Shown here: positions 1,705 to 26,300 of the stretch, piece after piece
How positions within the stretch are numbered: position 1 is the stretch's first letter
How the letters are laid out: each line of letters begins with the position of its first letter
IMG/VR virus record: IMGVR_UViG_3300031963_014654
Location: 1-64,000 of that record
Source of the DNA: a virus
DNA: 64,000 nt
Direction: 5' to 3' (one strand)
The notes under the pieces: generated by a model
Told to the model about the DNA's origin: nothing
Database searches by the model: none
Seen by the model: the letters and a program-made list of their open reading frames with translations, nothing else
Program-made: the position numbers and the translations under genes

Positions 1705-2355
1705 TTATGCTTGTACTGTTTTTACAATTGCAAATGTGGTTGCCATTGCTATAAATGCAAATAGTAATACTATTGCCGGGTTACGCTTTACAAAGTTTGT
1801 TGCTCCATCAAAATTGATTGCATTTAATCGGTTTAACCAACCTTTTAAAAACATTCCGTATTTTGTAGGATTGCTATTTACTAAACTGTTACGGTTTGCA
1901 ATTTCGCCTGCTTTTGCAATATCAAATAGTTTTTTTGCATCTGCTTGGTTTATTAAATCGGCTTGCGCAGGCGTTAATGCACTTGAATTAACAGGTATTT
2001 TTGCAGCTCCATAATATGTATTTACATATCCTTTTACACGTTTTAATCCTACGTATCCAGATGCAATAAATGCATCAAAAAAGATATGTGCTACACTTTG
2101 GTTTACAATACGATCGCCTTGAATAACATCCCAATAGTTTTTTTTGTAAATTGCTTTTGCTTGGTCCTTTGTTAAGGCTTTCATTTTTGCAACTGTTGGG
2201 CACTCATTGTAGTAACCTTTGTATGCTATTGCTGAAATTCCGTGGTTTGTACCAATTAAAACTCCATTACAATAGTTTGCTGTATCGTTTGGAAATTGTT
2301 GAAATCCTCCTTCAAAATTAAAAGTTTTGGATGCTATTGCTAAAAAGTCGGCCAT
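1705..2355 (-). CDS. GH108-type muramidase with C-terminal membrane anchor
   Basis: This is a probable peptidoglycan hydrolase cleaving the glycan backbone. The N-terminus reads TFNFEGGFQQFPND; the E-G-G signature is typical of glycoside hydrolase family 108 and the Glu would be catalytic. Residues 1-185 cover the lysozyme fold, including KKNYWD and VAHIFFD. Residues 192-213 form a hydrophobic anchor (AIVLLFAFIAMATTFAIV). Free phage endolysins normally lack such an anchor. A membrane-bound muramidase among virion-like proteins fits a virion enzyme that opens the cell wall at entry, as P7 does in PRD1. Catalytic assignment is from motif only. Confidence 0.72.
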   Translation of the reverse strand: MADFLAIASKTFNFEGGFQQFPNDTANYCNGVLIGTNHGISAIAYKGYYNECPTVAKMKALTKDQAKAIYKKNYWDVIQGDRIVNQSVAHIFFDAFIASGYVGLKRVKGYVNTYYGAAKIPVNSSALTPAQADLINQADAKKLFDIAKAGEIANRNSLVNSNPTKYGMFLKGWLNRLNAINFDGATNFVKRNPAIVLLFAFIAMATTFAIVKTVQA

Positions 2356-3298: not shown

Positions 3299-3760
3299 TT
3301 ATTTACCTGCTTTTGAAGATTGTTTAACTCCGTACCAAACTAATCCACCAACAAGCAATACGCCCACTACAATTCCAATCCAAGCTCCTACGCCTAAACC
3401 TTTTGGTTCTTCGGGCATTGGTGCTGGTGGCATATTTGATGGTGCTACATTTTGTTGCCCAAATAATCCTTGGAAAATTTGACCTGCATTTTGCAAAATT
3501 TGACCTGCACCTTGTACATATCCTACCCATTGCGGAGTACCATCTGCACTTGTTGTTTGTGTCATTTGTGATTGCTTTTGACGAACGCAATCCATAATTA
3601 ATGAATCGGAAGTGGTATTCAACTCTTGTGAACAACGCGCACGAAGTTCAGTTTCGGTAAAATTACTCCATGTTTTTAAGCCAACTTTGTTATTATTAAA
3701 GTTGCTCCATGTTTTTAATCCCATTTGATTTTCTGTAAAATTGCTACAAGTACCACACAT
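3299..3760 (-). CDS. tail-anchored protein with N-terminal SNF repeats
   Basis: This gene encodes 153 residues. The N-terminus carries three spaced copies of a short motif (SNFTENQMGLKTW, SNFNNNKVGLKTW, SNFTETEL). A Gln-rich, glycine-containing middle (VQGAGQILQNAGQIFQGLFG) and a Pro-rich linker (about 113-123) follow. The C-terminal membrane span is about 127-148 and ends in KSSKAGK. The repeats could be short adhesive or assembly peptides. No known family is recognised. Confidence 0.66.
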   Translation of the reverse strand: MCGTCSNFTENQMGLKTWSNFNNNKVGLKTWSNFTETELRARCSQELNTTSDSLIMDCVRQKQSQMTQTTSADGTPQWVGYVQGAGQILQNAGQIFQGLFGQQNVAPSNMPPAPMPEEPKGLGVGAWIGIVVGVLLVGGLVWYGVKQSSKAGK

Positions 3761-3781
3761 GTTTTTATTTGTTTTAGGTTT

Positions 3782-4480
3782 TTACTTTTTTTGACTGTTA
3801 ATTATTTTGTAACCGGCATAAATAATTGCTACTGTTATTAATAATCCAATTACTATTTTTAATGTTGTATTCGATTTTTTTGTTTCTACTGTTGTTGCTG
3901 TTTCTGGTAAAGAAGCTGTTGCTTCTGCAGGCTTTTCGCTTTCAACTTTGTTTGTTTCAACTGCTTTGCTTTCGGCTACCATTGTTGGTTGTAAATCGGC
4001 AAGCATTTGATTCATTTTTTTTAGTGCATTTTCGGCACCTTTTTTACGATTAAGGTTAATTAATTGGCCTGTTGAATCGCATGTAAAAGGCTTCATAATT
4101 ATTAAAGAACAATCGCCAATGGCTAACACTTTTACTTCGCCCGAATAAGTGCCTTTATTGTCTTTTATTTGCACCAATTCGTTTTGTTGAAAATACTTAG
4201 CAAATGGTGTAATTAACTTTGTTATTTTAAAATCAATTGGCTTGTTTCCGTATTTTTCGGAATACTTTTGAAAAGTATCTTCGCCAAAATGATCAATAAT
4301 TGTTTTTTTCCATTTACCATTACCAAACAAGTGGTTTGCGCTTTGTGGCTCTACACTTGTAAATTCAATTGGTGTTGAATAAAAATCTAAATCTACTCGC
4401 GCACCATTAATTCTACGTTTTAATTCCTCAATGTTTTTTTCGGATGTAGTACTAATCCCAATTTTTGAATTTGCTTCCAT
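3782..4480 (-). CDS. tail-anchored membrane protein
   Basis: This gene encodes 232 residues. The first ~150 residues appear globular and soluble. A low-complexity linker rich in A, E, T and V (about 165-205) leads to a C-terminal membrane span (about 208-226) ending in KKK-type residues. The architecture is a soluble domain on a stalk with a membrane tail, as in its neighbours. No homologous family is recognised. Confidence 0.68.
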   Translation of the reverse strand: MEANSKIGISTTSEKNIEELKRRINGARVDLDFYSTPIEFTSVEPQSANHLFGNGKWKKTIIDHFGEDTFQKYSEKYGNKPIDFKITKLITPFAKYFQQNELVQIKDNKGTYSGEVKVLAIGDCSLIIMKPFTCDSTGQLINLNRKKGAENALKKMNQMLADLQPTMVAESKAVETNKVESEKPAEATASLPETATTVETKKSNTTLKIVIGLLITVAIIYAGYKIINSQKK

Positions 4481-4491
4481 TTATTTTGATT

Positions 4492-5076
4492 TTAGGCTGT
4501 TGCTGCTGCTTTTGATTTTTTTCTTATCTTAATAAAAATAATTGTTCCGATAATTAACAATACTACTCCTACAACTGCAAAAACAATCAATTTTGTTTTG
4601 CTTCCAGAAAAAGCCGCTTGCTGTGCTTCCAATTCCTTTAATGCAGCTAATGCATTTGGATCTGTTTTTGCTTTTTCTTTTAATGCCTCTATTTGCTTTT
4701 CAAATAGTGCATTGATTGAACGTTGTTCATTATCAACTTCAATTTTTTTGTTTGCAATTTCAATGTTTTTTAAGTTTGAAATTTCCTGCTTAATGCTTGC
4801 AACTTTAGCTCTTTCTATATCAACATTACGAGGATCCATTAATCCAGCATTTGCTTTCTGAATGTTTTCAGACAAATAACCTTCATGTAAAGCCAATCTT
4901 CTTTCTGCATCTGGCAATTTAACAGTTTCTAATACGCTTAATTCGGATTTTAATCGCTCCAAACGAGTAGTATCAATACCAAAATCCTTTGGTGATGTTC
5001 CTGTTATATTTGAAAATTTAGATTTTCTTGGAATTAAACCTGTTGGTTCTTTAAAAAGTCTATCGTTAGTATTCAT
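4492..5076 (-). CDS. tail-anchored coiled-coil membrane protein
   Basis: This gene encodes 194 residues. A long charged helical region (about 38-158) is a probable coiled coil. The C-terminal membrane span at about 163-183 is followed by KIRKKSKAAATA. It may form an elongated spike stalk or tether. It lies 4 bp from the next gene. No family is recognised. Confidence 0.68.
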   Translation of the reverse strand: MNTNDRLFKEPTGLIPRKSKFSNITGTSPKDFGIDTTRLERLKSELSVLETVKLPDAERRLALHEGYLSENIQKANAGLMDPRNVDIERAKVASIKQEISNLKNIEIANKKIEVDNEQRSINALFEKQIEALKEKAKTDPNALAALKELEAQQAAFSGSKTKLIVFAVVGVVLLIIGTIIFIKIRKKSKAAATA

Positions 5077-5080
5077 TTTG

Positions 5081-5305
5081 TTATTTTTTTTTGTTTTTTT
5101 TGATAATAATTATTATAACTACTGTAATTGCAATAACCCCTAAAACAGTTCCCACTATTGCACCTGTTGAAAAGCCACCGCTTGATTTATTTAATGCTTG
5201 TTGTAATGCTTGCTGTTGTAATAATAATGCTTGCTGGTTTGCTGCTTTTTGAGCATCGCGCTTTGCAATACATTCTTTATTTCCAAAACAAAGTCCTAAT
5301 TCCAT
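5081..5305 (-). CDS. small tail-anchored membrane protein, Gln-rich
   Basis: This gene encodes 74 residues with a Gln/Ala-rich helix (about 18-42), a glycine-rich turn, a membrane span (about 48-68, valine/isoleucine-rich) and a KKNKKK terminus. Its start overlaps the upstream stop by one base. Function is unknown; the overlap and spacing tie it to the virion-like operon. Confidence 0.64.
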   Translation of the reverse strand: MELGLCFGNKECIAKRDAQKAANQQALLLQQQALQQALNKSSGGFSTGAIVGTVLGVIAITVVIIIIIKKNKKK

Positions 5306-5814
5306 TATTTGTTTGCTTTTGCTTGTTTATAAATAATAAATCCTGCAGCAATTACAAGTATGCTTATTACAACAATTGCAATTGTTGTGTTTCTTTTTTT
5401 AGCTTTTTCCTTTTCGGCTGCTAGTGCAAGTATTTGTGCATTTGTAGCTGCAATGGCTGCTGAATTATCTGGTGTTTGAAACGAACCAATAATACTAGCA
5501 ATGCTATTCATAATACCAACTGTTGCTGCGGTATATCCATCTGTCATGTTTGAATAGCTGCCTGCAACCATTTGAGCAAATTCGCCTTGAAATTCTTTTG
5601 ATTTGTTTAGCATATCAACTGTTAATACAGTTAATTCATTTGCACTAATTTTTCCGTATGCAGGAACGCCAAATTTATTTAACAAATCAACTAATTCTTG
5701 TTTTTTGTTTACAACGGCATCGGCAATGTGCTCCATGCCCTTTTGTTGTTCCGGACTAACCAAATATGATTTGCCATCAAAAACTTTAGCTGTATCGCGT
5801 GTAATAATTATCAT
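5305..5814 (-). CDS. tail-anchored membrane protein
   Basis: This gene encodes 169 residues with a soluble helical N-terminal part (about 1-130) and a single membrane span (about 143-162) followed by KQAKANK. Start and stop overlap the neighbouring genes by 1-4 bases, consistent with coupled translation and fixed stoichiometry. No family is recognised. Confidence 0.67.
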   Translation of the reverse strand: MIIITRDTAKVFDGKSYLVSPEQQKGMEHIADAVVNKKQELVDLLNKFGVPAYGKISANELTVLTVDMLNKSKEFQGEFAQMVAGSYSNMTDGYTAATVGIMNSIASIIGSFQTPDNSAAIAATNAQILALAAEKEKAKKRNTTIAIVVISILVIAAGFIIYKQAKANK

Positions 5815-6314
5815 TGTTTAAATATTTTAGAACCTACAAACATTAATACAATTGCTGTTAATGCTAATAATAGGTATTGATTTGTTTTGTGTATTGAACT
5901 TCCTGGCAATTCGGTTGGAGTTGCTTGCTTTTGTTTTTCAATTATTTGTTTTTGAACAAAGGCAATGGTATCGAGTAATTCTATTTTTGATGCTTGATCG
6001 GTTGCTTTACTAAATTGTGTTGTAAGCGATTCTAATTCGGAGTTTAATTGACTTAAATTGTATTGTTTTACGTTTGAAACATAGTTATCAGGAGTAAATC
6101 CCGATTTAGTAACAAACAATTCTTTATCTGGATGAACCGAAATCATTGAATTGATAAATGAATCGCCATATTGTGCTGTTGCATAATCAACCATGGTAAA
6201 GTATTCGGCATGGCTTTTTGGCATTGGTAATGCAAATTGCTGTGTAAGCATTGGCAACACTTCGTTTTCGTTGTGTAATGCTATATAATGGATCGGATTA
6301 AGTGCGTTATACAT
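5811..6314 (-). CDS. tail-anchored membrane protein
   Basis: This gene encodes 167 residues, mostly helical with a Gln/Lys-rich segment (about 105-130) and a C-terminal membrane span (about 147-163). The start region overlaps the end of the capsid-like gene upstream by 8 bp. No family is recognised. The overlap with a capsid paralogue strengthens the case for a virion component. Confidence 0.66.
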   Translation of the reverse strand: MYNALNPIHYIALHNENEVLPMLTQQFALPMPKSHAEYFTMVDYATAQYGDSFINSMISVHPDKELFVTKSGFTPDNYVSNVKQYNLSQLNSELESLTTQFSKATDQASKIELLDTIAFVQKQIIEKQKQATPTELPGSSIHKTNQYLLLALTAIVLMFVGSKIFKQ

Positions 6315-6957
6315 TGTATTTGTTGCATTTAGGATTGCTATCCGAATTAATTAATTCAATTTTTTGAACTCTGTTTGGCTTTGAAGGTTCGGCATTTTCA
6401 ACAATGGAATCATTATTAAGAATGTTTTGCCTTACAATTTTTTGCTTTAATCTTATTACTAATCGAATTGTTGTGTTTCCTTTTATTGATCCACTAATAG
6501 CATGTATTCCATCTATTAACATCCCATTAAAATCCACAATTCGTATATTTTTGTTTGCGCTATATTGATTTTCTGGTTCAATATAGTTTAATGGTTGTAC
6601 TGTTTCTAATTCAACTAATCCTGTTGCCTCTCTCGAAAAGTATGATAAGTTATTATCTAAATTATCGGTATCGGTTGTGGAATAAAGAATTGAATCAATT
6701 ATGTAAGGATTATTATCAACTTCTCTTTTAACCTCGCCATGTGTTGCTCCATTTACATTTACTCTTACGCCTGTTGATGATCCTGCATTATTAGAAAAAC
6801 CATAAATATCGCCACCAAACAAAACATAAGAAAGACTTGTGCTAAGAGTATTTACAATTTCTACAACTAAAATTTTGTTTAACGCTTCAACTGTTTTTTC
6901 GGAAAGCCCTGTAAAATCGTTGATTTTCGTTTCAAATTTGTTTAAGAAATCAATCAT
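6307..6957 (-). CDS. capsid-like protein, paralogue of the 7035-7739 product
   Basis: This gene encodes 216 residues. It aligns by eye along most of its length with the 7035-7739 product. Shared segments include YVLFGGDIYG versus YVVFGNNIYG, AGSSTGV in both, VKRE in both, TDTDNLDNNLSY versus TSDADNLSNTISY, and PLNYIEPENQ versus PLNYQEPENN. The composition is beta-rich with no membrane span. It is probably a minor capsid or vertex protein made from a gene duplication. It lies downstream of a terminator that follows the main copy, so it is expected at lower levels. Confidence 0.65.
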   Translation of the reverse strand: MIDFLNKFETKINDFTGLSEKTVEALNKILVVEIVNTLSTSLSYVLFGGDIYGFSNNAGSSTGVRVNVNGATHGEVKREVDNNPYIIDSILYSTTDTDNLDNNLSYFSREATGLVELETVQPLNYIEPENQYSANKNIRIVDFNGMLIDGIHAISGSIKGNTTIRLVIRLKQKIVRQNILNNDSIVENAEPSKPNRVQKIELINSDSNPKCNKYNV

Positions 6958-6973
6958 TGGTGATTTGTTTTTT

Positions 6974-7005
6974 GAAAAAAAGCCAAAGAAACAAGTTCTT
7001 TGGCT
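6974..7005 (-). terminator. rho-independent terminator after the major capsid-like gene
   Basis: On the minus strand a perfect 10-bp stem AGCCAAAGAA/TTCTTTGGCT (6981-6990 with 6996-7005, 5-nt loop) is followed by a run of T (complement of 6975-6981). It sits between the 7035 stop and the next gene, so it probably attenuates downstream transcription and raises the relative yield of the capsid transcript. Confidence 0.85.
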
Positions 7006-7034
7006 TCTTTATAATTTACTTCCGTTTTTGGATT

Positions 7035-7739
7035 TTAGTAACCTAAAAACTTGCTACGTGTTGCAACATCAGGAGCAGCTACCGCTGTTGGTACAGCTAA
7101 AGGAGCAGAAACTTGTAATTGCAATGGAGCTTGTCCGTTTGGAGCAGGTCTTGAAGTTGTTACGATAACTGAATCATCAGAAGCAGCGTTACGTAAATCT
7201 ACTTTTGTACCTACTGAAAGGATTAAAGTGATTGTAGTACCTGTTTTAATGGTTCCTGTTAAATAACTACCACCATAAATATCCATACCTTCAAAGTCAG
7301 GAATACGAACCAATAAAGATTGGTTGTTTTCTGGTTCTTGGTAGTTTAATGGTGTTACAGGGATTGATTGAAACTTACCTGTTGAATCTTTTTCGATGTA
7401 CGAAATAGTATTCGATAAGTTATCAGCATCGCTAGTTTTGTACTTCGCCATTACCAATTGTGCAGGTGAGTTCGCTGTTTCGCGTTTTACCTGTGCGTGG
7501 CTTGATTCTGAAATTGTAACAGTAACACCTGTAGAAGATCCTGCAGAAGCAGCATCACCATAAATGTTATTACCAAATACAACGTAAGTTGCATCAGCAT
7601 TTGTTGCATTTGTAATTAATACCGTGAAAGTACGGTTTAATTGTTGCAAACGGTTAGCAGGAGCCATTCCGTTACCTCCAAAATTGGAGAAACGTGAAGC
7701 AGATCTAGCTACCAATGATTTGTAAGAATTTGGGTTCAT
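7035..7739 (-). CDS. candidate major capsid protein (single jelly-roll-sized, beta-rich)
   Basis: This gene encodes 234 residues. The basic N-terminal arm (about 1-25, MNPNSYKSLVARSASRF) is followed by a beta-rich core (about 30-185) and a Pro/Ala-rich tail. Two paralogues lie beside it. It has its own intergenic region upstream, a strong terminator downstream and regular codon choice, all typical of a highly expressed capsid gene. Size and secondary-structure character would fit a single jelly roll as in two-capsid-protein membrane viruses such as P23-77. This is inference; no capsid family signature is recognised with certainty. Confidence 0.6.
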   Translation of the reverse strand: MNPNSYKSLVARSASRFSNFGGNGMAPANRLQQLNRTFTVLITNATNADATYVVFGNNIYGDAASAGSSTGVTVTISESSHAQVKRETANSPAQLVMAKYKTSDADNLSNTISYIEKDSTGKFQSIPVTPLNYQEPENNQSLLVRIPDFEGMDIYGGSYLTGTIKTGTTITLILSVGTKVDLRNAASDDSVIVTTSRPAPNGQAPLQLQVSAPLAVPTAVAAPDVATRSKFLGY

Positions 7740-7790
7740 TGTTTTCTTTGTGTTTTTTTTGATTGATGTTTATTTTGCTTTTGAAAATAA

Positions 7791-7892
7791 TTAGCGACCT
7801 AACATTTTGTTTACGCTTGGTTTAACTAATTCTGCAACTAAAATCGCAACTACGATTACACCTGCATACATAAGGGCTGTTTTAAAATTCAT
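7791..7892 (-). CDS. 33-residue membrane miniprotein upstream of the capsid gene
   Basis: ATG at 7892-7890, TAA at 7793-7791. The product has one hydrophobic span (about residues 4-23) and a basic end, KPSVNKMLGR. It lies between a terminator and the major capsid-like gene, in the same transcript as that gene. Small abundant membrane miniproteins are typical of internal-membrane phages. The good frame, A-rich leader and placement support it. Confidence 0.65.
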   Translation of the reverse strand: MNFKTALMYAGVIVVAILVAELVKPSVNKMLGR

Positions 7893-8025
7893 TTTGAATG
7901 GGTTTTTTGGTTTTTAATTTTTTTTGACTATAATAAGTGATGCAAAATTCAGAAAACATTATAAATATGGAAAGTGCTTTTGTTTTACAATTATGTTTTT
8001 TGTAAATAAATAGGCTAAATGGCAC
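7893..8025 (-). promoter_or_regulatory. promoter-containing leader of the capsid transcript (candidate)
   Basis: No gene fits here. A terminator ends at about 8026, so transcription of the miniprotein and capsid genes should restart here. On the minus strand there is a TATAAT at 7963-7958 with TTG motifs upstream. A perfect TAnnTTTG box is absent. The exact promoter is uncertain. Confidence 0.35.
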
Positions 8026-8054
8026 TAAAAAAGCCACATTTTCCAATGTGGCTT
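8026..8054 (-). terminator. rho-independent terminator
   Basis: On the minus strand a perfect 10-bp stem AAGCCACATT/AATGTGGCTT (8031-8040 with 8045-8054, 4-nt loop) is followed by T residues (complement of the A run before 8031). It follows the 8103-8612 gene and separates it from the capsid transcript. Confidence 0.85.
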
Positions 8055-8102
8055 GTAATTTTATTTTTTACAAAAATTCTATTGTAAATATCAAATTTGA
8101 TT

Positions 8103-8612
8103 TTATTTTGGTACGCGTGTAAGTGTTAGGTTTGTTCCTGGTGCAAACAAATCAATTAATGATTTAATGAAATTTGACTTTTTTGTGGCTTGCTTTACCT
8201 TAATGATTACATCCATACGGCTATTGGCATTAATTACTCCTGTAATACCATCTTTACCTGTAATGGTAAGTTCGGGATTGCGAATTACAACAAAGTTTGG
8301 AATTGAATTAATTACATCTACATAATCAACCGGATTGAATGATACTTGCACGTATTTTCCTGTTGCATCACTATGCTGCAATGTAATTGGATTACTCAAT
8401 TGCTCATTGTTATTGGTGCGTATTTTAATTTCTTTTACATCAAAATAGGCTTGTGCGCTTTGGCGTGTTGCTTGCATAAGTGAACTTTCGGCTACATTTA
8501 CGGATACGCCTGGTCCACTTTGTAAGCCTTGGTTATAGCCAAATGCAGCCCATGGTAGGGCTGTTTTTGTATTATTTACTATTGTAATTGTGAGTGTATC
8601 GTTTTTAAACAT
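8103..8612 (-). CDS. third capsid-like paralogue
   Basis: This gene encodes 169 residues, beta-rich, without a membrane span. It shares the order of motifs seen in the 6307 and 7035 products: LPWAAFGYNQG in place of YVVFGNNIYG, GVSVNVAESS in place of GVTVTISESS, then TGKYVQ followed by PVDYVD. It is more diverged and lacks the basic N-terminal arm. A penton or second capsid protein is a reasonable guess. It overlaps the upstream gene by 8 bp and is followed by a terminator. Confidence 0.58.
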   Translation of the reverse strand: MFKNDTLTITIVNNTKTALPWAAFGYNQGLQSGPGVSVNVAESSLMQATRQSAQAYFDVKEIKIRTNNNEQLSNPITLQHSDATGKYVQVSFNPVDYVDVINSIPNFVVIRNPELTITGKDGITGVINANSRMDVIIKVKQATKKSNFIKSLIDLFAPGTNLTLTRVPK

Positions 8613-9270
8613 TGTGATTATGGATTGATGTTTCTGGTTGAATTATTTCGGGTGCTGTTTCAATTGGTGCAATTGTATTATCTATTACTGCTGCAGGTTC
8701 AATTGCTTTTGTATCTGCAATTGGTTCTGGATGTATTGTATTTTCTACATCGGCTTGCTGAATTGTTTGCATTGCGGAATCAACTGAACTTATCATGTAA
8801 TCGGATAATTCAAGTACTTCGTTTCGCTTGTCGGACATAAACGATTTAAGCATTTTCGAAAACATTTTTGGTATTCCAGGCATTTCGGCATTTGGATCCA
8901 TCGATTCCTTTTGAGCAACAAAATATTGCTTTATGTTTAATAAAAACGATTTTGGTACTTGAATGCTTACAACTTCATCTACAAAGGTTTCTGAATTTGG
9001 TAATTCAACTTGTTTTGTTGTTTGTAATTGTGTTCCATCGGCATTCAGTACAACCAATTCATCGGGCTTTACTTCTAAAAAATATTGTTTTTTAGTAAGC
9101 GTTAAATTGTAATGTTTTGATAAATGTGCTTTTACATTTTCATCGTCAGAGCATAAGCCTTCTGGATGCTCAATTAACACAATATCCCCACGTACTCCAT
9201 ATACGTATGTACGGTGCAATGGTTTATATTGATTAAATCCTATAAATTGTACTAAAGTTCCTTTTTTCAT
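8605..9270 (-). CDS. hypothetical virion-operon protein
   Basis: This gene encodes 221 residues. The first ~90 residues form a basic beta-rich domain (KKGTLVQFIGFNQYKPLHR) that could be SH3-like or DNA-binding. The rest is helical and ends in a Pro/Glu/Ile-rich tail (about 170-215). No family is recognised. It sits between the packaging-type ATPase and a capsid paralogue, so a role in assembly is likely. Confidence 0.58.
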   Translation of the reverse strand: MKKGTLVQFIGFNQYKPLHRTYVYGVRGDIVLIEHPEGLCSDDENVKAHLSKHYNLTLTKKQYFLEVKPDELVVLNADGTQLQTTKQVELPNSETFVDEVVSIQVPKSFLLNIKQYFVAQKESMDPNAEMPGIPKMFSKMLKSFMSDKRNEVLELSDYMISSVDSAMQTIQQADVENTIHPEPIADTKAIEPAAVIDNTIAPIETAPEIIQPETSIHNHNV

Positions 9271-9281
9271 TTTTTTTGTTT

Positions 9282-10277
9282 TTATTTGTTATTTGGTAAA
9301 TACATTTTTTTAAACTTTTCGGTTAATCGTTGTATTGCTTTTGAATGTACATCGGGGCTTTTTCGCTGTGCGGATGTAATTTCTTGGTCAAATACCATTG
9401 CTGTAATTTCATCTTGTATTACACGTGGATAATGCAAAATATATTTACGGCACGCAATGGCAAAGTTTTTATCGGATATTGGAAATAGTTTTCGTTTCCA
9501 ACGATCGATATAAATACAATACGATTTTGCTCCTAACCATTGTTCCTTGGTTATTTTTTGCGCTTCGTACAATTCATTTGCTAATGCATATTGCGCTTCT
9601 ACTGCAAAATGTGCAATCATTAACAAATTCATATCAAAATTGTTCTTTTTGTCGGCTGGCATACTCTCCGGACTATCTAATCCTTTGTGCAATCGAATAA
9701 AACGAACGTTTTCGCATTCGGTTACTCCCATTTTGCGCCATGCTTGGTGGGCAAATAAGGTATGGCAACCACGGTGGCGCAATCCCATCAAATTACCTAC
9801 TAAATCTTTGTCGCTCGATGTTCCAAATGCAGCATATCCATCAATATCATCAAATACGGCTAATCCGTTTCTGTAATTAGCCAATACATGCTTCATTACT
9901 TCTACTTTGCGCTTGCTATTCATGGCGCTACCATCACTATCAATTGGCGTTATTTGGCGTATTTCAACTGTTTTTTGAGAAACGAATTTTCGAATTGCTT
10001 CGGGTGTTGGTGGCAATGTTTTAAATTTTGCATAACCATCTTCGTTCTGAAAATTAAGAATAAGCACTTTTCTGCCATTTTTAACGCCTTGTATTGTTTG
10101 TGCGTACAATTTGCATTGCTCAATGTTTTTATGCGTTTTGCCAACGCCTGTAAGCCCAATTACGCTGGTAGAAAAACATTCCTCGGATTCAAATTTGAAT
10201 TTAGGAGCTGTATCCACTTTTGCTGCAGGATTTTTATCCTTTGGAGCTTGGTTATTTGTTGGTTTTTTGGGTTCCAT
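9282..10277 (-). CDS. P-loop ATPase, candidate genome-packaging ATPase
   Basis: This gene encodes 331 residues. A disordered N-terminus rich in K, P and N precedes Walker A GLTGVGKTHKN (about 40-50). Walker B is GLAVFDDIDGY (about 138-148). A HRGCHTLFAHQAWRK segment follows, positioned like the sensor/arginine region of HerA/FtsK-type packaging ATPases. No terminase large-subunit nuclease domain is present. A compact FtsK/HerA-like ATPase next to capsid genes is the hallmark of tailless membrane viruses. Zot-like assembly ATPases are the main alternative. Confidence 0.68.
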   Translation of the reverse strand: MEPKKPTNNQAPKDKNPAAKVDTAPKFKFESEECFSTSVIGLTGVGKTHKNIEQCKLYAQTIQGVKNGRKVLILNFQNEDGYAKFKTLPPTPEAIRKFVSQKTVEIRQITPIDSDGSAMNSKRKVEVMKHVLANYRNGLAVFDDIDGYAAFGTSSDKDLVGNLMGLRHRGCHTLFAHQAWRKMGVTECENVRFIRLHKGLDSPESMPADKKNNFDMNLLMIAHFAVEAQYALANELYEAQKITKEQWLGAKSYCIYIDRWKRKLFPISDKNFAIACRKYILHYPRVIQDEITAMVFDQEITSAQRKSPDVHSKAIQRLTEKFKKMYLPNNK

Positions 10278-11213
10278 TTATTTTACTTCTTCGGCTATTA
10301 TTGTTTCAATTTCTTCTTCGGTTTCCTTTGGTTCTTCTTTTGGACCGGATTGTTTAGGAGCTTGGCTACGGATTAAATCCATTAAGTTGTTTTCCAGAAT
10401 TTTGTTTTCTTTACGTATTTCAACAACTATTTTTGCTTTTTTAACTCCTATCATTAATAATCCAACCACTAACTTTTCGCCATTTGTTAATCCACGGATG
10501 CCTTTTTCTTGCATCATGGCAACCAATGGCTCGCGAATCATATCAATATCTTCATCGTCAAACTTAATTTTTTCGGTGTTTTTTTCGTTTTGCTCCTTAA
10601 TTTGTTCAACGGCACCTTTAAAATTATAAAATTCGCGGTGCAATTTTACTCCAACGAGCATTGGACCAAAAATACCAATTGCATAGTTTAATCCTTTTTG
10701 TCCAAAATCGATTAAATCGTTTGCCGAACCGGATGGAATGTTAAATGGACTTGTTCCATCACCACCATCATTTACGGTGTGCTGTTCGGCATAACCTTCA
10801 TCTCCTGGTGGCGTTGGTTCAAATTCCTCGTTTGGTGGTGTTGGTTCAAAATCATTTGCTGGTGCTGTATCTTTTGGATTTTGCGGATTTGGATTTGGCT
10901 GCGCTGTATCGGCTTTGGCTTTATCATTTACAGTAGATGCTGTTTTGTGCGAGTTTACGCCTGCATCGGTATAATCGCGTTCCACGGTTGGGCGTGCAAA
11001 TGGTTCCTCCGAAATATTAATTTTTCCAACTCCTTCCAATTCTACTTGGTTATCTATTGGTGTTTTTGTGGTTTTATCGTTTAGTTGATCTTCCATGCTT
11101 TTTCTGAATTGTGTGTGTGTTGTTGGTTGTTCTGGTGTTTGGTTTATTTCTTCTGTTGGTTTTGGTGGCTCGGCTGTTTGCTTTGCTTTTGGGATACGTT
11201 TTTTATATGACAT
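10278..11213 (-). CDS. hypothetical protein with acidic, Pro-rich N-terminal half
   Basis: This gene encodes 311 residues. About 1-155 are low-complexity (P, T, E, K, N), with two copies of EFEPTPPG/N-like repeats (about 121-134). About 165-280 are helical and contain an amphipathic or membrane-dipping stretch (YAIGIFGPMLVGVKL). It ends in acidic residues. The stop abuts the ATPase start exactly. It may be a scaffold or membrane-associated assembly factor; no family is recognised. Confidence 0.6.
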   Translation of the reverse strand: MSYKKRIPKAKQTAEPPKPTEEINQTPEQPTTHTQFRKSMEDQLNDKTTKTPIDNQVELEGVGKINISEEPFARPTVERDYTDAGVNSHKTASTVNDKAKADTAQPNPNPQNPKDTAPANDFEPTPPNEEFEPTPPGDEGYAEQHTVNDGGDGTSPFNIPSGSANDLIDFGQKGLNYAIGIFGPMLVGVKLHREFYNFKGAVEQIKEQNEKNTEKIKFDDEDIDMIREPLVAMMQEKGIRGLTNGEKLVVGLLMIGVKKAKIVVEIRKENKILENNLMDLIRSQAPKQSGPKEEPKETEEEIETIIAEEVK

Positions 11214-11214
11214 A

Positions 11215-11661
11215 TTATTGTTGTTTAAATTTTGTAATGTTATTTGTTATTTGCTGGTAAATGGTATGGTGATTTTTGTCGATTGCAGGAAGATCAACAA
11301 TGTTTTTCATTTTTTTTATATCCGCACTTATTTGGTTTCGAGTGTATGGATACTTAGGAAATTTGCTTTTTATTTTTGCTGCAGAAAGGTTGCAATGCAC
11401 TTTTAGCAGGTAAAAACAAGTTTTACGTGCTTTTTTGTACGGTTCGGTACGCGAAACGGCAAGGTTTTTTTGTTGCACTTTGTGGATTTCAACAACTTGT
11501 GCAACTATGTATTTTTGTAAATCGATTGAATGAAGCTGTGGATTACTTTCGAGTGAAAGTGCTTCGATAAGGTCGGCCGCTTTGGGGCTACCATGTTTAG
11601 CAATTAATGAATCAATTGCATTGTTGATACGCAATAGTGGGTTGTTTTCTGACATAAGCAA
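11215..11661 (-). CDS. putative DNA-binding protein
   Basis: This gene encodes 148 residues (146 if the second ATG, MSENNP, is used). A helix-turn-helix-like segment lies at about 90-118 (LSAAKIKSKFPKYPYTRNQISADIKK), basic and followed by a helical end. It may bind DNA as a regulator or packaging accessory. The call rests on composition and pattern only. It lies 1 bp before the next gene. Confidence 0.52.
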   Translation of the reverse strand: MLMSENNPLLRINNAIDSLIAKHGSPKAADLIEALSLESNPQLHSIDLQKYIVAQVVEIHKVQQKNLAVSRTEPYKKARKTCFYLLKVHCNLSAAKIKSKFPKYPYTRNQISADIKKMKNIVDLPAIDKNHHTIYQQITNNITKFKQQ

Positions 11662-15450: not shown

Positions 15451-15523
15451 GTTGCATGATTGGACTCGAACCAACGACCTCATAACTAACAGTTATGCGC
15501 TCTCCCAGCTAAGCTACATGCAA
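15451..15523 (-). tRNA. tRNA-Asn (anticodon GTT)
   Basis: A complete 73-nt cloverleaf can be folded by hand. The acceptor stem TTGCATG/CATGCAA is perfect. The D arm contains AGCTGGGA. The anticodon stem CATAA/TTATG has loop CTGTTAG, so the anticodon is GTT. The T arm is GTTGG-TTCGAGT-CCAAT. CCA is not encoded. It has its own upstream promoter and lies between two protein genes, far from the integrase. Viral tRNAs usually supplement or replace host tRNAs. Confidence 0.93.
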
Positions 15524-15832: not shown

Positions 15833-18800
15833 CTATTTCATTTTACGTTCATATTCCAAAATATCCTCCATGCTTAACCATTCGGGCTTTTTATTATCTG
15901 GTAACTGATTCCACAATTTTTTCATTTCGGCTATTTGTCCCTCTACATTGCCTGCCCACAAATGCTTTACATGCTTGCTTTTGCCTTCGTTGCCTAAATA
16001 ATAATCATTATCTGCCCTTAGCCTATCAAGCATTCTATAATTGTATTTATAGTCATTTACAGATCCGCCTTGCTCCATTTTATCCAATTCTAAAATACGA
16101 ATACGTTGTGATTGTGCTGCAGCTTTTGCTTTAGCAATTTTCACTTTTCGGGTGCGGTTATCATCCGTTAGTTTTTGTTCCTTTTTAAAGTTTACGGTAT
16201 CTGTTAATTTTGCATAATCGCGGTTTTGTGGGATTTTTTCGCCACCATGCTCCATTACTTGTCCTGACATACCATCCACAAGAATCCATCCATTCACCAT
16301 TTTTTTAATTTGGTCGAATGCGGTATGGCCTGCATCAAATACTTCCTGCACTACATCCATTGGAACAAAACGCCCTGTACGTTTGTAACGATCAAGAACT
16401 CGCATTTCGCTTACTTCGCGTGGAACATCAATGTAAATAATAAATATTTCGTATCCTACTGATTTTAACTTATCAATAAGCTCGTAGTATTTTTTTGCTT
16501 TATTCATTGTACCATCGTAAATAGTATCGAATTTACATTTGCCTCCAATATCATCAATTAATTCATCAACAATATCTTTTGTTTCGTGATGTGTTGCCGA
16601 AGCATTCCATCCTTTGTACTCTGGCAATTTTGCTCTAACTTCATCGGCATCAACATGGAAAATGTTTTTGCTCAATAAATATGGTGCATAATTTTTAAGG
16701 AAATGCGATTTTCCCGAACCTGGTGCACCACCTGTAAGTATTGCAATTGGTTTATCTTGCTTAATGCATGTTGCATTTTGCTTGAATGCCTCTCTTATTT
16801 TTGCATGTAGCTTTTTACGTTCGGCTGTATATTCGCCATCCTTATCCACATTTTGTTCTTTTGTTTGTGGTTGAGCATTAATACAAACGGTTAAGTGCTC
16901 TATTGCTTCTTTGTCAATTCTGCGTTCGCCTTTTTCATCCAATGGAGGGCAAGCCATTGCAATTGGCTCTTGTTTTTTCGATTTTTTAACTTTATCGTCA
17001 AGCAAATAATTTAATCGCTCAAATTCTTTTGCACGGCCAATTGCTCCAACAGATTCAACTTTATTTGCAGCACGCTCTGCAGCAATATAATCGGCTCTTA
17101 ATTTAATGTTTTCTTCGCTTGTTATTTTTGCTTTTGATTCATCCAGCTCTTTAATTCTATCGTTTAAAGAATCTTTGTATAAAGGAAGTTTTTCAATTGT
17201 TAATCCGTTTGGTTTTAAATATTCTTTTTCGGCTTTTAATAAAGTTCTGTTTGCAAGCACCAATTTATCTTGATAATAAGGCTTTCCTGCTGGTGATTTA
17301 TCGGAATAAACAACACCTTCTTTGTTTGAACGGTTGTATGTGTATTCCATTTTTTTACCTTCAGCATCCAATTGTGTTTTAACTACACCGTTTGCCAATC
17401 CAAGCAAAGTAGCAAAACTACGTGTTTCGCCCTCTTTTTTAGGTCGGTATTCATCTACATATTTATCAAAATCATTAAAATATGCTTCGAATGTTTCTTT
17501 TGCCTCAATTATTTTATCGATGTTAGATTGTTCGTTTTTTAATCCACGAATATCATCATCAATTTTTTCTTTGTCCTCAATAAGTTGCAATTCGGCCAAT
17601 ACCATTGGATCGGAAATAAGTGCCGATTTGATTTCGGAAGGGTTAAATTCCTGCAAATTAAATGTGTTGCTTTCTCCATTGCTATCCCAAATTTCGGCAA
17701 TACGTGCTGTTTTTTCGGATAATTTTTGGAAGATAAAAATATCCATACTATCCTCCATTAATGGAGTAGCTATACGAACGCTATTGTATAGGTTTCCTTG
17801 CCTCCAAATACGGCCTTCCAATTGTTTTACATCTGTTGGATTCCAATCCACAAAACAGTTGTATAAAACAGTTGAATGCTTTTGTAGGTTTATTCCTTCT
17901 TTAATTGTACTTGAACCAATTACAATTTTCATGCGTTCGGCATCTGAAATATCGTATAATTCGCCCGATTTTGCATCGTATGCTTCGCCCAAAAATGCCA
18001 TTTTTACTTTTTCCTTTGCATCTTTACCTCCTGGCATTTGTGATTTTATAATTCCAACTTCATGCTCCTTATATCCTACTTCTTTAATTAAGTATTCCTT
18101 AATTAATCCAAAATATTCAACTCCGCGGTCCATGTAAATTACTTGTCCGGAAACAGGAGTATTGTTTTTTTCGTGGTATTTTTTTACCGAACGAATACAC
18201 TCAATTACATATTGTAATTTAGGTGATGTTTCGATATAATCAATATAGTTTGGTTTGCCTAATCCTGCACATTCGTATAAGTATGGGCTTAATGCTAAGT
18301 TACGAGCATAACTCATTGCACGCAATGTTCTTACGCCTGCTTTTTCATCATCATTTAAGGTAGATTCATCTAACTCAACGCCTGCAGTAGCATCAACCAT
18401 ATCTTCATCATCCGAATCATCGGCTGTTTTTTTATCGGATAAATGGCTTGTTCCACAAATAGCTGATAATTCAATTTTAGATTCGGCATAAGCCTTAATA
18501 TCGTCCATTAATGCTCTTTGTTGGGCACTAAGTGGTAATATTGTATCTACGCGTTCTGATTCCGACAATTTAATTAACTCACCATCAATTAATTTTGACT
18601 TGTATGGAAGCACGTATTTGTTTGGGCGTGGTACACGAACCATTTCGCCTGTTTTGTAGTTTACAAATCGGCTAATTAACTGTTGTAACGATTGCAAGTT
18701 GTTAAATCCTAAAACAACTTGTTTTCTTTCTGGACGCAATTTTGCATTAATAACCAACTCGTTTGTTGCATGAACGTATGTATCAAAAAACGATTTTAGG

Positions 18801-21800
18801 TTGTTTAATCCTGATTCGCGTAGTTTACCATAAGCAATAAATGTAAGCACGCTGAAAATTTCTAGCGGACTATTTGTGAATGGCGTAGCTGTTAATGTAA
18901 GTACGTTACGGTTATTGTTGTTTTTAAGGATGTACTGACTAATCATAAATCCTTTTAATGCAATGCTTGATGGTGCTCCACCTGCTTGTATTTGATACGG
19001 ATTTTTTTCGCGATCCTCGCCATTTGATTTCATTTCACCTTTAACGCCAACAAACAACTTTTTCATTTTGTGAGCTTCGTCATAACAAGCAAAATCAAAT
19101 CCAAGGTCCTCAATATTGATTAAAGTACCTCTTAATCCTCGTCCAATAAGTGTTTGTAATCGTTCGTAGAACGATGCTTCGCGTTTTTGCCCTGATTTGG
19201 ATGAATAATCAACCGCCTTATCTGGATTTTGATCCAAAATATCATACATTTCGGCAACAATTTGATTTGCTGTGTTTTCGCTAAATCCAATTTGCTCAAA
19301 TCCTTCGTATGTTAATACGGAAATAGAGTTTTCGGGAAGCATTTCAATGTTTCCATCTGCATCTTTTAATTCCGATAAATAATCTTTGCTTAAATTGTAA
19401 AGATCATTAAATTTTACATCTGGGAACAATCCTTTACCTTCTGCCAAAAATTGCTTGTACACTTGGTTTGGCACAACAATAAATGGTCGCTTGCAATAGC
19501 CTGCATCCATAAATTGCTTTATAGCAAATAATGCGCTCCATGTTTTACCAACTCCTACATCGTAGGCAAGGCATCCGCTACCTTCATTCATTAAAAATGT
19601 TACGGCTTCGCGTTTTTCGGGGCGAATATCTACTACTGAATTGCGGTATTCTTTTGCATGTGCAAATGCTACAGGAATTTTATTGTAATTAACAGGCAAA
19701 TAACCGTTAAAACGCTCATTCCAGGTTGTTTCAATTTTTACAATATCCTCTACATTTAACCATTCAGCTAAGAAAATAGAAAATAATCGATCGCCTTCTT
19801 CTTTTGTAATGTTTAATTTACGTTGCCAAATTGCTTCTGCTTCCTTTTTGTCGACTGGCGTACCATCTTTACCTAATGATGGTCGCTGACCTTGCTGTAC
19901 GTAAATTTTAATAATTTCGGCATAGTTTGTATCTTTTTTAATTTGATACTCACCACGGTAATTTACAAGCCAATATTGGAATGCTTCGGTTAATGATAAT
20001 TGACTGAACTTTGTTTTTTTCCAATCGCTCATGTGCCCAACATATAAAAAATCGGGCCTACCTGGTTGTTTTCCACCTGCAGGTTGCGATTTCATTTTAA
20101 ATTCTTTACCATCTACCAATGTTTCAATCATAAATGTATTGGCAAACTTACTAATTGGAAGCAATTTTAAACGGTTGTCGAAATTTGCATTGGTAAGTGT
20201 TAATCGCTTATCGTAGCTTATTTTAAACACATTATCCAAAACTAACTTTTGGTTTTCAAAAACTTGATTTCCATACAATTCAATTATGGTTGATTTATCG
20301 TTTTCAAGTGCCGATTTTTTCTCCCAAATGTTCCCTGACAAATATAAATATGCTGGAATTAATGATCCACGGAAATGGAAAACTAAGCCATTGTTAATCC
20401 AATCTGTTAATGGGCTTGCTCCCATTTGCCATCCGCTTAATTGGTACCATTTATTTGAAAGACGCTCGCCAATTGCTTCCTTATACCAAACAAATACTTG
20501 TAATTCATCTTTTGATATTTCGGGATTGTTTTGGGCAAATACTTGCTCAAATGTAACCATATCGGCATCCAATACAGGATTGCTTGCAACAATTCGTGTA
20601 ACGGCTTTTGTATGTTTTTTAATTTCGCGAATAATTGTTTCTTTGCGTGTCCCTTCCAACGAAGTTTCAATATTTTGCTGTGCTTGTGGATCCTGTAAAA
20701 GTTGGTTTACAGTTTCGTTTTCAGTTGATATTGTTGGATTTTCGGATGCATTAATTTGCATAAAATTTAATGGAGCATCAATACGATTAACGCTATCAAT
20801 TTTACCACGGTATTTTGTAACTTCGCCAAAACGCCCACTTGTTTTGTATGGCTCGCCAAGTACTTTATCTGGATTTTGAGCAAACCAATTATCGTTTACA
20901 AGTAAGTTTAATGTATTGGGCTGCTTTGCTTCGCCTGCAGCAACTAATTCCATTGGAGTGTTAAAAAAGTCCTCAATAGGATCGGTTGTAGTATCTGAAA
21001 TTAAAATAAATTTACCATCACCGTATTGATAATATTGTTCCGGAGTAGAAATTCCTTTATAAACTTCAACTTGCTTTCCAAGCATGTTTGAATACCATGC
21101 TTTTGGATTAGCTTCTTTTATCCAAACTTTAAATTTCTCAATTGGCACCCATTTTTCTACTTCTGGCTCTAGTGCTTTTGGCAACTCTGCTGCATTCTCT
21201 GCAAATTCAAAACTATCGGATGTGTTTTTACCATACTTTTTGGCACGTGCATCAAATAAAACAGAATCGGGATGTTCTGCAATATAATCATCTACAATTT
21301 TATCAAAATCGGTTTGCCAACGATCATCAAACGAAGTATAGATTGATTGTTCTACTCCTGGTGCAATTGGCTTCATTGAAGATTGTGGAACAGGTGTATT
21401 GTATCCTTTAAGCACCAAAATATATGGGCTGTATGTTAATGTGGTGCCACGTGGCGAACGCTTTCCTTTTGGAATAAATGTTACGCTTAATGCTTTTTCG
21501 TATTGAGCATATTTTTTTGCTTTGATTTTTATATCAGTAACATCTATTTTGTTTATATTTCCCATAAACTCGCTTGCCAAATACATTGTAGCTGGACCGG
21601 TATATGAAAATTCCATTGGAAGTATTGGTGCGGTTGGTTTTGTTTCTGGCGTTTCTTTTTTTAATATCATGCCATCAATCGGGTTTATTTCCATCCAAAC
21701 ATCCGATACTGAATTAGCGGTTTCTTCGTTTATAACGCTTATTATTAAATCTACTCCACCATCCGTTCTATCTATTATAGATTCTTTTATGCCCATATCG

Positions 21801-24437: not shown

Positions 24438-26300
24438 TTATTTTCTTTTAAATACAAGAATATCACTTAATACATCGGTACGGTCAAAAACTCCATTTGG
24501 TAATCGGTAAGCATCTACTAAATCGGCTTTATCGGCAATCATTTGCTTAATTTTGCTGTTCCCTTGCTGTAAAAATGGTGTGCCTCCATTTGCAACTTCG
24601 GTTCCAATAATGTAAATTAATAATCCGTTTGGCAAAGTTAAGTCTAATCCGCGTAAAATAAAATATTCTATCCAATTTTTTGCGTTTGTATATTGTTTTT
24701 CGCCCATTCCCATTCCTAATCCAGAAACATCGCCATAAGGAGGATTTCCAATTACAAGGTCGAATTTTTGAATATCCGACAACTTATTTTTAACGGTATC
24801 GCGGTTTTTAATAAAAATATTTTCGAATGGCTGCAAATAAAAGTTGAATTGAGGATACAATATTTTACAAATAGTATAGCTGTATTTGTTTATTTCATAA
24901 CCTGTAGCCATGCTTTGAGTTGGAACATATTTTAAAAATTCGCCTGTTCCTACGCTTGGCTCCAAAACAGATTGCCCATCTTTAAATCCAAACTTATAAG
25001 CCAATGCCCACATTTTGCGAATAATTGCATCTGGTGTATAAAATTCTGTTAATGCTTTTTTAGCTTCTTCTATTGAGCCAAATTCTTCTACATCAATACC
25101 ACCGTAACCGGAGTATTCGCGCAAAAATTGTTTTTCTGAAAACAGGTAATTGTTTGGATCATCACCTTTTTGGTCAATTAATTGCTCAATTTCTTTGTTT
25201 TTTTGATAATCGCTTTTTTGTGGTTCGGATTTAACTGAACCATATTTACCATCCTGCGATTTATCGTTTTTAGGAAATTTCATGCGTTTGTTGATTGATC
25301 CACCGCGAGCCATATAATTATTCCCATTTATTGCAAGTCCTTTATATCCACCGTTAAAAATTGTATCTATTTTGGAGTTGATTCCAAAATTGTCTTTTAA
25401 GTATTTTTCTATTTCATAGTATCCTGTTCCAGATTTTGTAAATACGAATAGCCTTCCTGTCGGGCTGGAATATTGTTTTTCTTCATCAATTCTATATATT
25501 TTATCTTTAAATTGGCTATAAAGCTCTGCTTTTATTTCATCAAAATAATCATATAAAATTGAGCCTTTTTCAATAACATGCCCACCAATTAAACCACCAC
25601 GTGCCATTTCATCAAATTCCAAATCAACATTGTTAAGTTTAATTTCGCCACCATGCTCCATTTTATCGGTTTGTTCGCCTGCACAACCGCAATCTAATGG
25701 TTTTCCATTACCATCGCGTTGGTTAATTTCAGATAATTCATGGCAATATTCTTTGCTATTTTCGGCATTAATTACCACTTCACCACCTTCGGCTTCGGCT
25801 ACCGGTTTATTATTTACAACAATTTCGATTCCGCCATTATCGTGGCTTGGACCTTTTAATACGGTTCCATCTTTTAACTCCTGGATTGGTCCACCTTGCT
25901 TTAACACACCCATTTCTAATTTACGGTAATAATCGGGTGTTTCTTGAATATGATCGGCTGCAATGTATTTTGCTGCTTTGGTTGTGGATGGTAATTCGGT
26001 TTGTATTTTTTTGATTGTGGCTTTATGCTCCAATTCGGTTTGGCCACCTTCATTTATTTTTTTGATTAAATAATCGATGTATTTTTTTTCGGCTTTTGAT
26101 ACAAATGTAAATCGATGCCCAGAATGATCGTAAATAACGTATGGCTTTTGTTTATACGAATCCAATTGCTTTACATCAATAAGTTTTTTAACGAGAATAA
26201 CATCATCAATCATTTCTTTTTTGGTGATTAATTTTTCTTCGTAAATAACCTTGTTACGCAATGCTGCAGGAAGTGAATTAGCTTTTTTGTAGTCAATCAT
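24438..26300 (-). CDS. polyvalent protein with C-terminal N6-adenine DNA methyltransferase domain
   Basis: This gene encodes 620 residues. About 390-620 form a type I/Eco57I-like N6-methyltransferase, with the SAM loop VLEPSVGTGEFL and catalytic motif VIGNPPYGDVSG. About 130-205 contain a phage-type segment, TVLKGPSHDNGGIEI and EAEGGEVVINAE. Six xxGGx motifs dot the N-terminal half (GG at about 85, 136, 172, 217, 235, 333). In many elements this methyltransferase is fused to a helicase like the one in the 15833-24211 product; here the two are separate neighbouring genes. Likely role: methylation of viral DNA against restriction. Confidence 0.82.
   Translation of the reverse strand: MIDYKKANSLPAALRNKVIYEEKLITKKEMIDDVILVKKLIDVKQLDSYKQKPYVIYDHSGHRFTFVSKAEKKYIDYLIKKINEGGQTELEHKATIKKIQTELPSTTKAAKYIAADHIQETPDYYRKLEMGVLKQGGPIQELKDGTVLKGPSHDNGGIEIVVNNKPVAEAEGGEVVINAENSKEYCHELSEINQRDGNGKPLDCGCAGEQTDKMEHGGEIKLNNVDLEFDEMARGGLIGGHVIEKGSILYDYFDEIKAELYSQFKDKIYRIDEEKQYSSPTGRLFVFTKSGTGYYEIEKYLKDNFGINSKIDTIFNGGYKGLAINGNNYMARGGSINKRMKFPKNDKSQDGKYGSVKSEPQKSDYQKNKEIEQLIDQKGDDPNNYLFSEKQFLREYSGYGGIDVEEFGSIEEAKKALTEFYTPDAIIRKMWALAYKFGFKDGQSVLEPSVGTGEFLKYVPTQSMATGYEINKYSYTICKILYPQFNFYLQPFENIFIKNRDTVKNKLSDIQKFDLVIGNPPYGDVSGLGMGMGEKQYTNAKNWIEYFILRGLDLTLPNGLLIYIIGTEVANGGTPFLQQGNSKIKQMIADKADLVDAYRLPNGVFDRTDVLSDILVFKRK

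Follow-up and report, generated by a model that had tools for sequence, protein, structure and literature searches.

Three paralogous candidate capsid genes beside a packaging-type ATPase in an uncultured virus point to a large, apparently tailless, membrane-containing phage

A 64,000-nucleotide stretch of viral DNA (positions 1 to 64,000 of IMG/VR record IMGVR_UViG_3300031963_014654; the whole stretch is called the window here) carries three minus-strand genes whose products fit no Pfam or PHROG model. An earlier note on this DNA had proposed them as beta-rich capsid paralogues around one strong middle gene, with separate hexon and vertex roles. Do these genes encode capsid proteins and, if so, of what kind of virus? 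We think it likely, with a probability of about 0.7, that they are paralogous single-jelly-roll major capsid proteins (MCPs) of a tailless double-stranded DNA (dsDNA) phage with an internal membrane. The capsid part of the proposal gains support from a jelly-roll model, a neighbouring ATPase of the HerA/FtsK type, a structural arm rich in membrane proteins, the lack of detected tailed-phage hallmarks, and an ATPase-capsid gene order conserved in relatives. By analogy with known viruses, the proteins would be located in the virion, with upright barrels and a division of labor, and the virion would be tailless. The three genes are as follows.

8103..8612, minus strand: candidate capsid paralogue 1, 169 amino acids (aa), without an N-terminal extension
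7035..7739, minus strand: candidate capsid paralogue 2, the middle copy between two terminators, 234 aa; its core, residues 25-192, corresponds to 7164-7667
6307..6957, minus strand: candidate capsid paralogue 3, 216 aa

That the three genes are paralogues is borne out by BLASTP: the 6307 and 7035 products share 39% identity over 180 columns (E 1e-33), the 7035 and 8103 products 28% over 144 columns (E 2e-14), and the 6307 and 8103 products 24% over 154 columns (E 3e-11). The motif order is common to all three, as the earlier note had observed. Exactly these three copies, and no fourth, turned up when the full 70,501-bp record was searched. The first and last 228 bases of the record match at 99.6%; thus, the genome is probably near-complete and either circular or terminally redundant. 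Among phage records, the window's capsid protein had no match and a relative's protein had one insignificant match.

The comparison of predicted structures that had been suggested was run on the 7035 product only, and for that copy it predicts a single jelly roll. With the three paralogues alone, AlphaFold2 gave a poor model (predicted local distance difference test [pLDDT] score of 51) whose best structural matches were plant-virus jelly rolls. With 18 aligned sequences, relatives included, the 7035 core reached a pLDDT of 77.4 and a predicted template modeling (pTM) score of 0.71, and the model is a single barrel of roughly nine strands plus a main helix. The 7035 product is most likely a jelly roll according to this model, and the 6307 and 8103 products, as its homologues, presumably share the fold. 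The nearest solved structures (Z of ∼6 to 7, none above 8) are small plant-virus coats, phage cement trimers, the MCPs of PR772 and PRD1, nucleoplasmin, the furin P-domain, and FlhE. Many of the closest are viral jelly-roll coats, including the double-barrel MCPs of PR772 (Z 6.0, 124 aligned) and PRD1 (P3; Z 5.8, 117 aligned). The P23-77 capsid proteins VP16 and VP17 are not among the 50 matches listed in either structural search, which is uninformative either way. Because jelly rolls and beta sandwiches of many kinds match alike, the fold by itself is no proof of a capsid role. The genes could instead encode nonvirion beta-barrels of a lectin, nucleoplasmin, or cupin type that multiplied within a mobile element, an idea encouraged by the tie of nucleoplasmin and furin P-domain folds with viral ones. 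We consider it very improbable, given that the position of the genes, next to a packaging-type ATPase and to membrane proteins, is conserved across many viral contigs and that, in relatives, capsid proteins and transmembrane (TM) proteins of the same arm have an N-terminal motif in common (see below).

The gene neighborhood is the second line of evidence. Reading along the minus strand, a DnaA-like helix-turn-helix (HTH) protein, a charged protein, the ATPase, and a 221-aa protein precede the three capsid genes, which are followed by a run of single-TM proteins, an HExxH protease, and a GH108 endolysin.

11215..11655, minus strand: DnaA-like HTH protein, 146 aa; orthologue in 6 of 7 relatives
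10278..11213, minus strand: charged protein, 311 aa, preceding the ATPase; relatives have similar-sized proteins at the same place
9282..10277, minus strand: HerA/FtsK-superfamily ATPase, candidate genome-packaging enzyme, 331 aa, assigned by family and profile matches
8605..9270, minus strand: 221-aa protein between the ATPase and the capsid genes; no family match at E ≤ 0.01
5811..6314, minus strand: C-terminal single-TM protein, directly 3' of the capsid genes
5305..5814, minus strand: C-terminal single-TM protein; homologues in 6 of 7 relatives
3299..5305, minus strand: four more open reading frames (ORFs; 3299, 3782, 4492, and 5081), each with one C-terminal hydrophobic segment
2358..3086, minus strand: predicted HExxH metalloprotease, candidate maturation protease; orthologue in 6 of 7 relatives
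1705..2355, minus strand: GH108-type endolysin with a C-terminal TM segment
364..1667, minus strand: three ORFs (364, 855, and 1233), each with one hydrophobic segment

TM segments, called by a hydropathy cutoff, are concentrated in this arm (19 of 30 ORFs, versus 5 of 80 elsewhere; Fisher test, 1.3e-9). The ATPase family is matched by the Pfam DUF87/HerA models in five of seven members (best E, 6.6e-5). When a 37-sequence ATPase profile was compared with 56 proteins of P23-77 and SSIP-1, the top protein was P23-77 ORF13 (P of 3e-5, 146 columns); among 29 proteins, ORF13 ranked ahead of SH1 ORF17, PRD1 P9, SSIP-1 gp40, and T7 TerL, in that order.

Is the arrangement particular to this genome? 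Scans for relatives with the capsid proteins, the capsid alignments, and the ATPase yielded nothing beyond one insignificant plasmid match (E 0.8), and scans with the whole polyvalent protein (described below) and the integrase yielded nothing. Seven relatives were reached, the first ones through a fragment around helicase motif VI and then through the capsid pair. Among them, the ATPase has orthologues in seven of seven and the protease and HTH protein in six of seven each, counts in which the G006 stretch examined stops short of the protease and the G004 stretch begins at the ATPase. Profile searches detected two to four capsid paralogues in six relatives and a single one in L021, where the contig breaks off within the capsid gene. 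Their main pattern is a small (220 to 252 aa) and a large (314 to 338 aa) copy, with the large copy lying directly 3' of the protease gene in several. An ATPase-profile scan then returned 35 loci, 30 of them on new contigs (L050, L059, L062, L070, and L071 were left out as already in the set). A capsid homologue lies near the ATPase on the same strand in 27 of these 30 further loci, downstream in nearly all, and in the other three the contig ends 0.3 to 3.9 kb past the ATPase. The whole-record search took in 25 of the 30 new contigs (leaving out L042, L063, L064, L069, and L072). At least two capsid copies (range, 2 to 4) are present in 7 of the first 8 records and 20 of these 25 further ones, i.e., in 27 of 33 including the window, where two overlapping matches in one frame of G015 count as one gene and several contigs look like near-copies (e.g., L043/L045 and L051/L052), so that the counts are not independent. 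Searches of an open-access literature library that does not include preprints turned up no account of such a group.

Two results on copy number weigh against reading these genes as MCP genes, together with several from the fold and profile searches: five of the 33 records have one copy only, and G032 has the ATPase and no detected capsid gene. The fold scores tie with those of the cement proteins KHP40 (Z 6.8) and KHP30 (6.4), nucleoplasmin, furin P-domains, and FlhE (7.1). A viral structure library gave two matches at E ≤ 0.001, the better being an uncultured Caudovirales protein. The sole PDB sequence match of the capsid family profile is 'Ring protein 4/5 gp34' (E 0.013), which we take to be a ring protein of a crAss-like phage; a Pfam head-completion model picks up 1 of the 18 family members (E 0.0022), and a PHROG terminase picks up one member of the ATPase family (E 3e-4). 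Finally, the capsid profiles lack sequence similarity to the MCPs of P23-77, SH1, SSIP-1, and PRD1; hhalign of the capsid family against VP16, VP17, SH1 VP4, and VP7 gave no signal.

The ring-protein and head-completion matches would suit a divergent tailed phage in which the three products are jelly-roll proteins of the head decoration or of a head-tail ring, as would the tail-fiber-type PHROG matches of the long repeat proteins at the record's end. Tailless viruses, however, can have fibers too, and the structural arm is full of single-TM proteins. PF03237, PF03354, PF04860, and PF05065, which stand for terminase, portal, and HK97 capsid, matched in none of the eight records, although very divergent versions could escape these models; the controls gave matches in 3 to 6 of 14 genomes. 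PHROG scans of 30 of the ∼110 window ORFs named no terminase or portal. We therefore regard a tailed phage as improbable. A somewhat better alternative, though still unlikely, is that the virus is tailless and has a membrane but uses a separate, undetected double-barrel protein as its true MCP, with the three proteins serving as minor single-jelly-roll components (pentons, spikes, or decoration). In line with it, the HCIV-1 penton protein VP9 is described as a minor capsid protein apart from the two MCPs (PMC6414509), cement trimers give similar Z scores, and several module proteins of 310 to 460 aa have no assigned fold. On the other side are the multiple copies of the capsid family in most records, the position of its genes adjoining the ATPase, which is the usual MCP place in P23-77 and PRD1, and the fact that no other conserved large module protein has been shown to be beta-rich, though none was modeled.

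If the three genes do encode MCPs, to which known viruses do they compare? P23-77, a Thermus phage (Matshushitaviridae, Helvetiavirae, realm Singelaviria), has two MCP types, VP16 and VP17 (PMC12429598, PMC4958249), and its gene order runs from the ATPase through two adjacent single-jelly-roll MCP genes to small membrane proteins and lysis enzymes. As in the window, the ATPase lies shortly upstream of the adjacent capsid genes. In contrast, the P23-77 genome is 17 kb rather than ∼70 kb, and three lineage-specific paralogues, an HExxH protease, and a giant polyvalent protein distinguish the window. Among the comparators named in the earlier note, P23-77 is apt in architecture and PRD1 and FLiP are not. 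Those two resemble what we propose in being tailless and icosahedral, with an internal membrane and a jelly-roll capsid. The FLiP MCP is reported to be a double-barrel protein (PMC5894146), and the gene for the PRD1 double-barrel MCP P3 has 1,188 nucleotides; the products here, of 169, 216, and 234 aa, do not form one chain with two fused barrels, and the 7035 core is one barrel. Since each copy is only long enough for one barrel, PRD1 and FLiP are unsuitable analogues.

Singelaviria is described as a realm founded on single-jelly-roll capsid proteins (PMC12714852). At least two single-jelly-roll capsid genes, a feature of Helvetiavirae and Singelaviria, are present here as judged by gene content and predicted fold, with a putative capsid role, and a second such feature, an FtsK/HerA-like putative packaging ATPase near the capsid genes, is present as well. 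Helvetiavirus capsomers are reported to be built from two single-barrel MCPs born of gene duplication (PMC8812541), and it is within this account that we read the window paralogues. The Haloarcula viruses SH1, HHIV-2, and HCIV-1 (Sphaerolipoviridae) differ from the window in their 30-kb linear genomes and archaeal hosts; the SH1 ATPase ranks second in the profile comparison, and viruses of this group are described as covering an internal membrane with two single-barrel MCPs plus a penton protein (PMC6414509). SSIP-1, reported as a tailless, membrane-containing virus with a circular dsDNA genome of 44 kb and a T=49 capsid (PMC6260650, PMC6356626), is the nearest known virus by lifestyle and size, not by sequence. 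It has adjacent paralogous structural genes (gp45 and gp46; E 1.4e-12), an ATPase and a giant methyltransferase annotated as structural proteins, and, by eye, many proteins with C-terminal hydrophobic ends. We dropped SSIP-1 as a sequence relative after finding no ATPase or capsid profile match and a weak methyltransferase match (E 0.001).

How might three such proteins build a capsid? In HCIV-1, VP7-VP4 heterodimers are described as forming pseudo-hexamers on the membrane, with VP9 plugging the vertices (PMC6414509); VP16 and VP17 of P23-77 are likewise described as forming capsomers on the membrane (PMC4958249, PMC12429598). By analogy, upright barrels would pair here as homo- or heterodimers and assemble into pseudo-hexameric capsomers on a membrane vesicle carrying the many single-TM proteins, and the HerA/FtsK-type ATPase next door would package the ∼70.3-kb circular or terminally redundant genome. 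The hexon positions would be divided among two or three copies, one of which may occupy the 5-fold vertices. The separate hexon and vertex roles proposed earlier remain a guess; relatives usually hold a small/large pair, not a triple.

A 19-row tree bears on how the copies arose. It groups the three window copies together (99/96), as it does the large copies of relatives (96/91) and, weakly, the small ones (71/39); the branches are long. The window lineage therefore likely made its own gene triple, and any division of labor probably arose within it. We had considered the 8103, 7035, and 6307 genes as the small, large, and vertex orthologues, respectively, and rejected this since the window copies are one clade, with the long branches as a caveat. 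A divergent capsid-type paralogue lies far from the structural module of one relative (L038:2766-3371, i.e., 10765-11370 of the G005 contig); the same stretch holds a 479-aa gene, presumably helicase-like. The 146,216-bp contig L019, a putative single, complete genome, has four capsid paralogues and, at its ends, a 48-bp inverted repeat. The G001 contig ends (L025 and L026) carry a 130-bp inverted terminal repeat (99.2%), which marks a genuine linear terminus or else arose by fold-back during assembly.

Terminators had been claimed on both sides of the middle copy, and predicted hairpins agree with this; the unit that they bound also contains a small ORF not mentioned earlier.

8054-8031, minus strand: terminator-like hairpin and T run between paralogue 1 and the middle unit, z -2.75
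7791..7892, minus strand: 33-aa ORF with one hydrophobic helix (TM), within the middle copy's terminator-bounded unit
7006-6980, minus strand: terminator-like hairpin and T run just 3' of the middle copy, z -3.87; the scanner lists the plus strand only, and in the sequence the minus-strand stem also leads into a T run

Its own terminators would permit a different expression level for the middle copy. That the middle gene is strong found no backing: a sigma-70-like promoter scan returned 20 sites versus 27 in shuffles, i.e., fewer than in shuffled sequence, and no Bacteroidota-type promoter pattern was found near the gene.

The HExxH metalloprotease, which has no Pfam family, was found in 22 of the 30 further loci. 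A motif defined on the first eight records, [FYM]S[NYFE][AVIFC].G, occurs 40 times in the 900 ORFs of these loci versus 4.25 expected from shuffles. It is carried by 9 of the 33 capsid ORFs, by 14 of 324 other ORFs that have a TM segment, and by 10 of 543 remaining ORFs, several of these last being the same protein start in near-copy contigs. In the capsid proteins it sits just ahead of the barrel; in the window it is weak (2 occurrences versus 0.5 expected). The protease and the motif in virion-type proteins suggest proteolytic maturation, and the motif may be the cleavage site of the HExxH protease.

Beyond the structural arm, the window holds a 2,792-aa polyvalent protein (15833-24211) whose domains are ParB-like, SNF2/helicase, zeta-toxin, and LPD11; next to it lies a DarB-like methylase (24438-26300). 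There is also a lone minus-strand tRNA-Asn (gtt; 15451-15523). Many glycosyltransferase- and methyltransferase-like genes lie in 29905-53197; PHROGs name two glycosyltransferases, and the others were judged by eye. A plasmid search with the C5 methylase pointed to no phylum for the host.

Gene sets of this kind occur in more than 30 further uncultured viruses, which suggests that large, apparently tailless phages with a membrane form a group that is still poorly known. Tentatively, and against the odds as we see them, this group may be a separate, widespread lineage (∼50 to 85 kb, perhaps to 146 kb), parallel to the known Singelaviria rather than nested in it, in which two to four single-barrel paralogues were duplicated independently in different branches and the HExxH protease matures virion proteins at a SNAxG-type motif. 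The known viruses with two single-barrel MCPs that we surveyed are described from extreme habitats and have small genomes of 17 to 44 kb; a group on contigs of mostly 41 to 85 kb would, if the capsid assignment is true, widen the size range of this architecture. Capsid genes would then have been duplicated in several branches, which bears on the origin of two-protein capsomers, and the capsid profile would offer a means of recognizing such viruses, whose capsid proteins escape Pfam and PHROG models.

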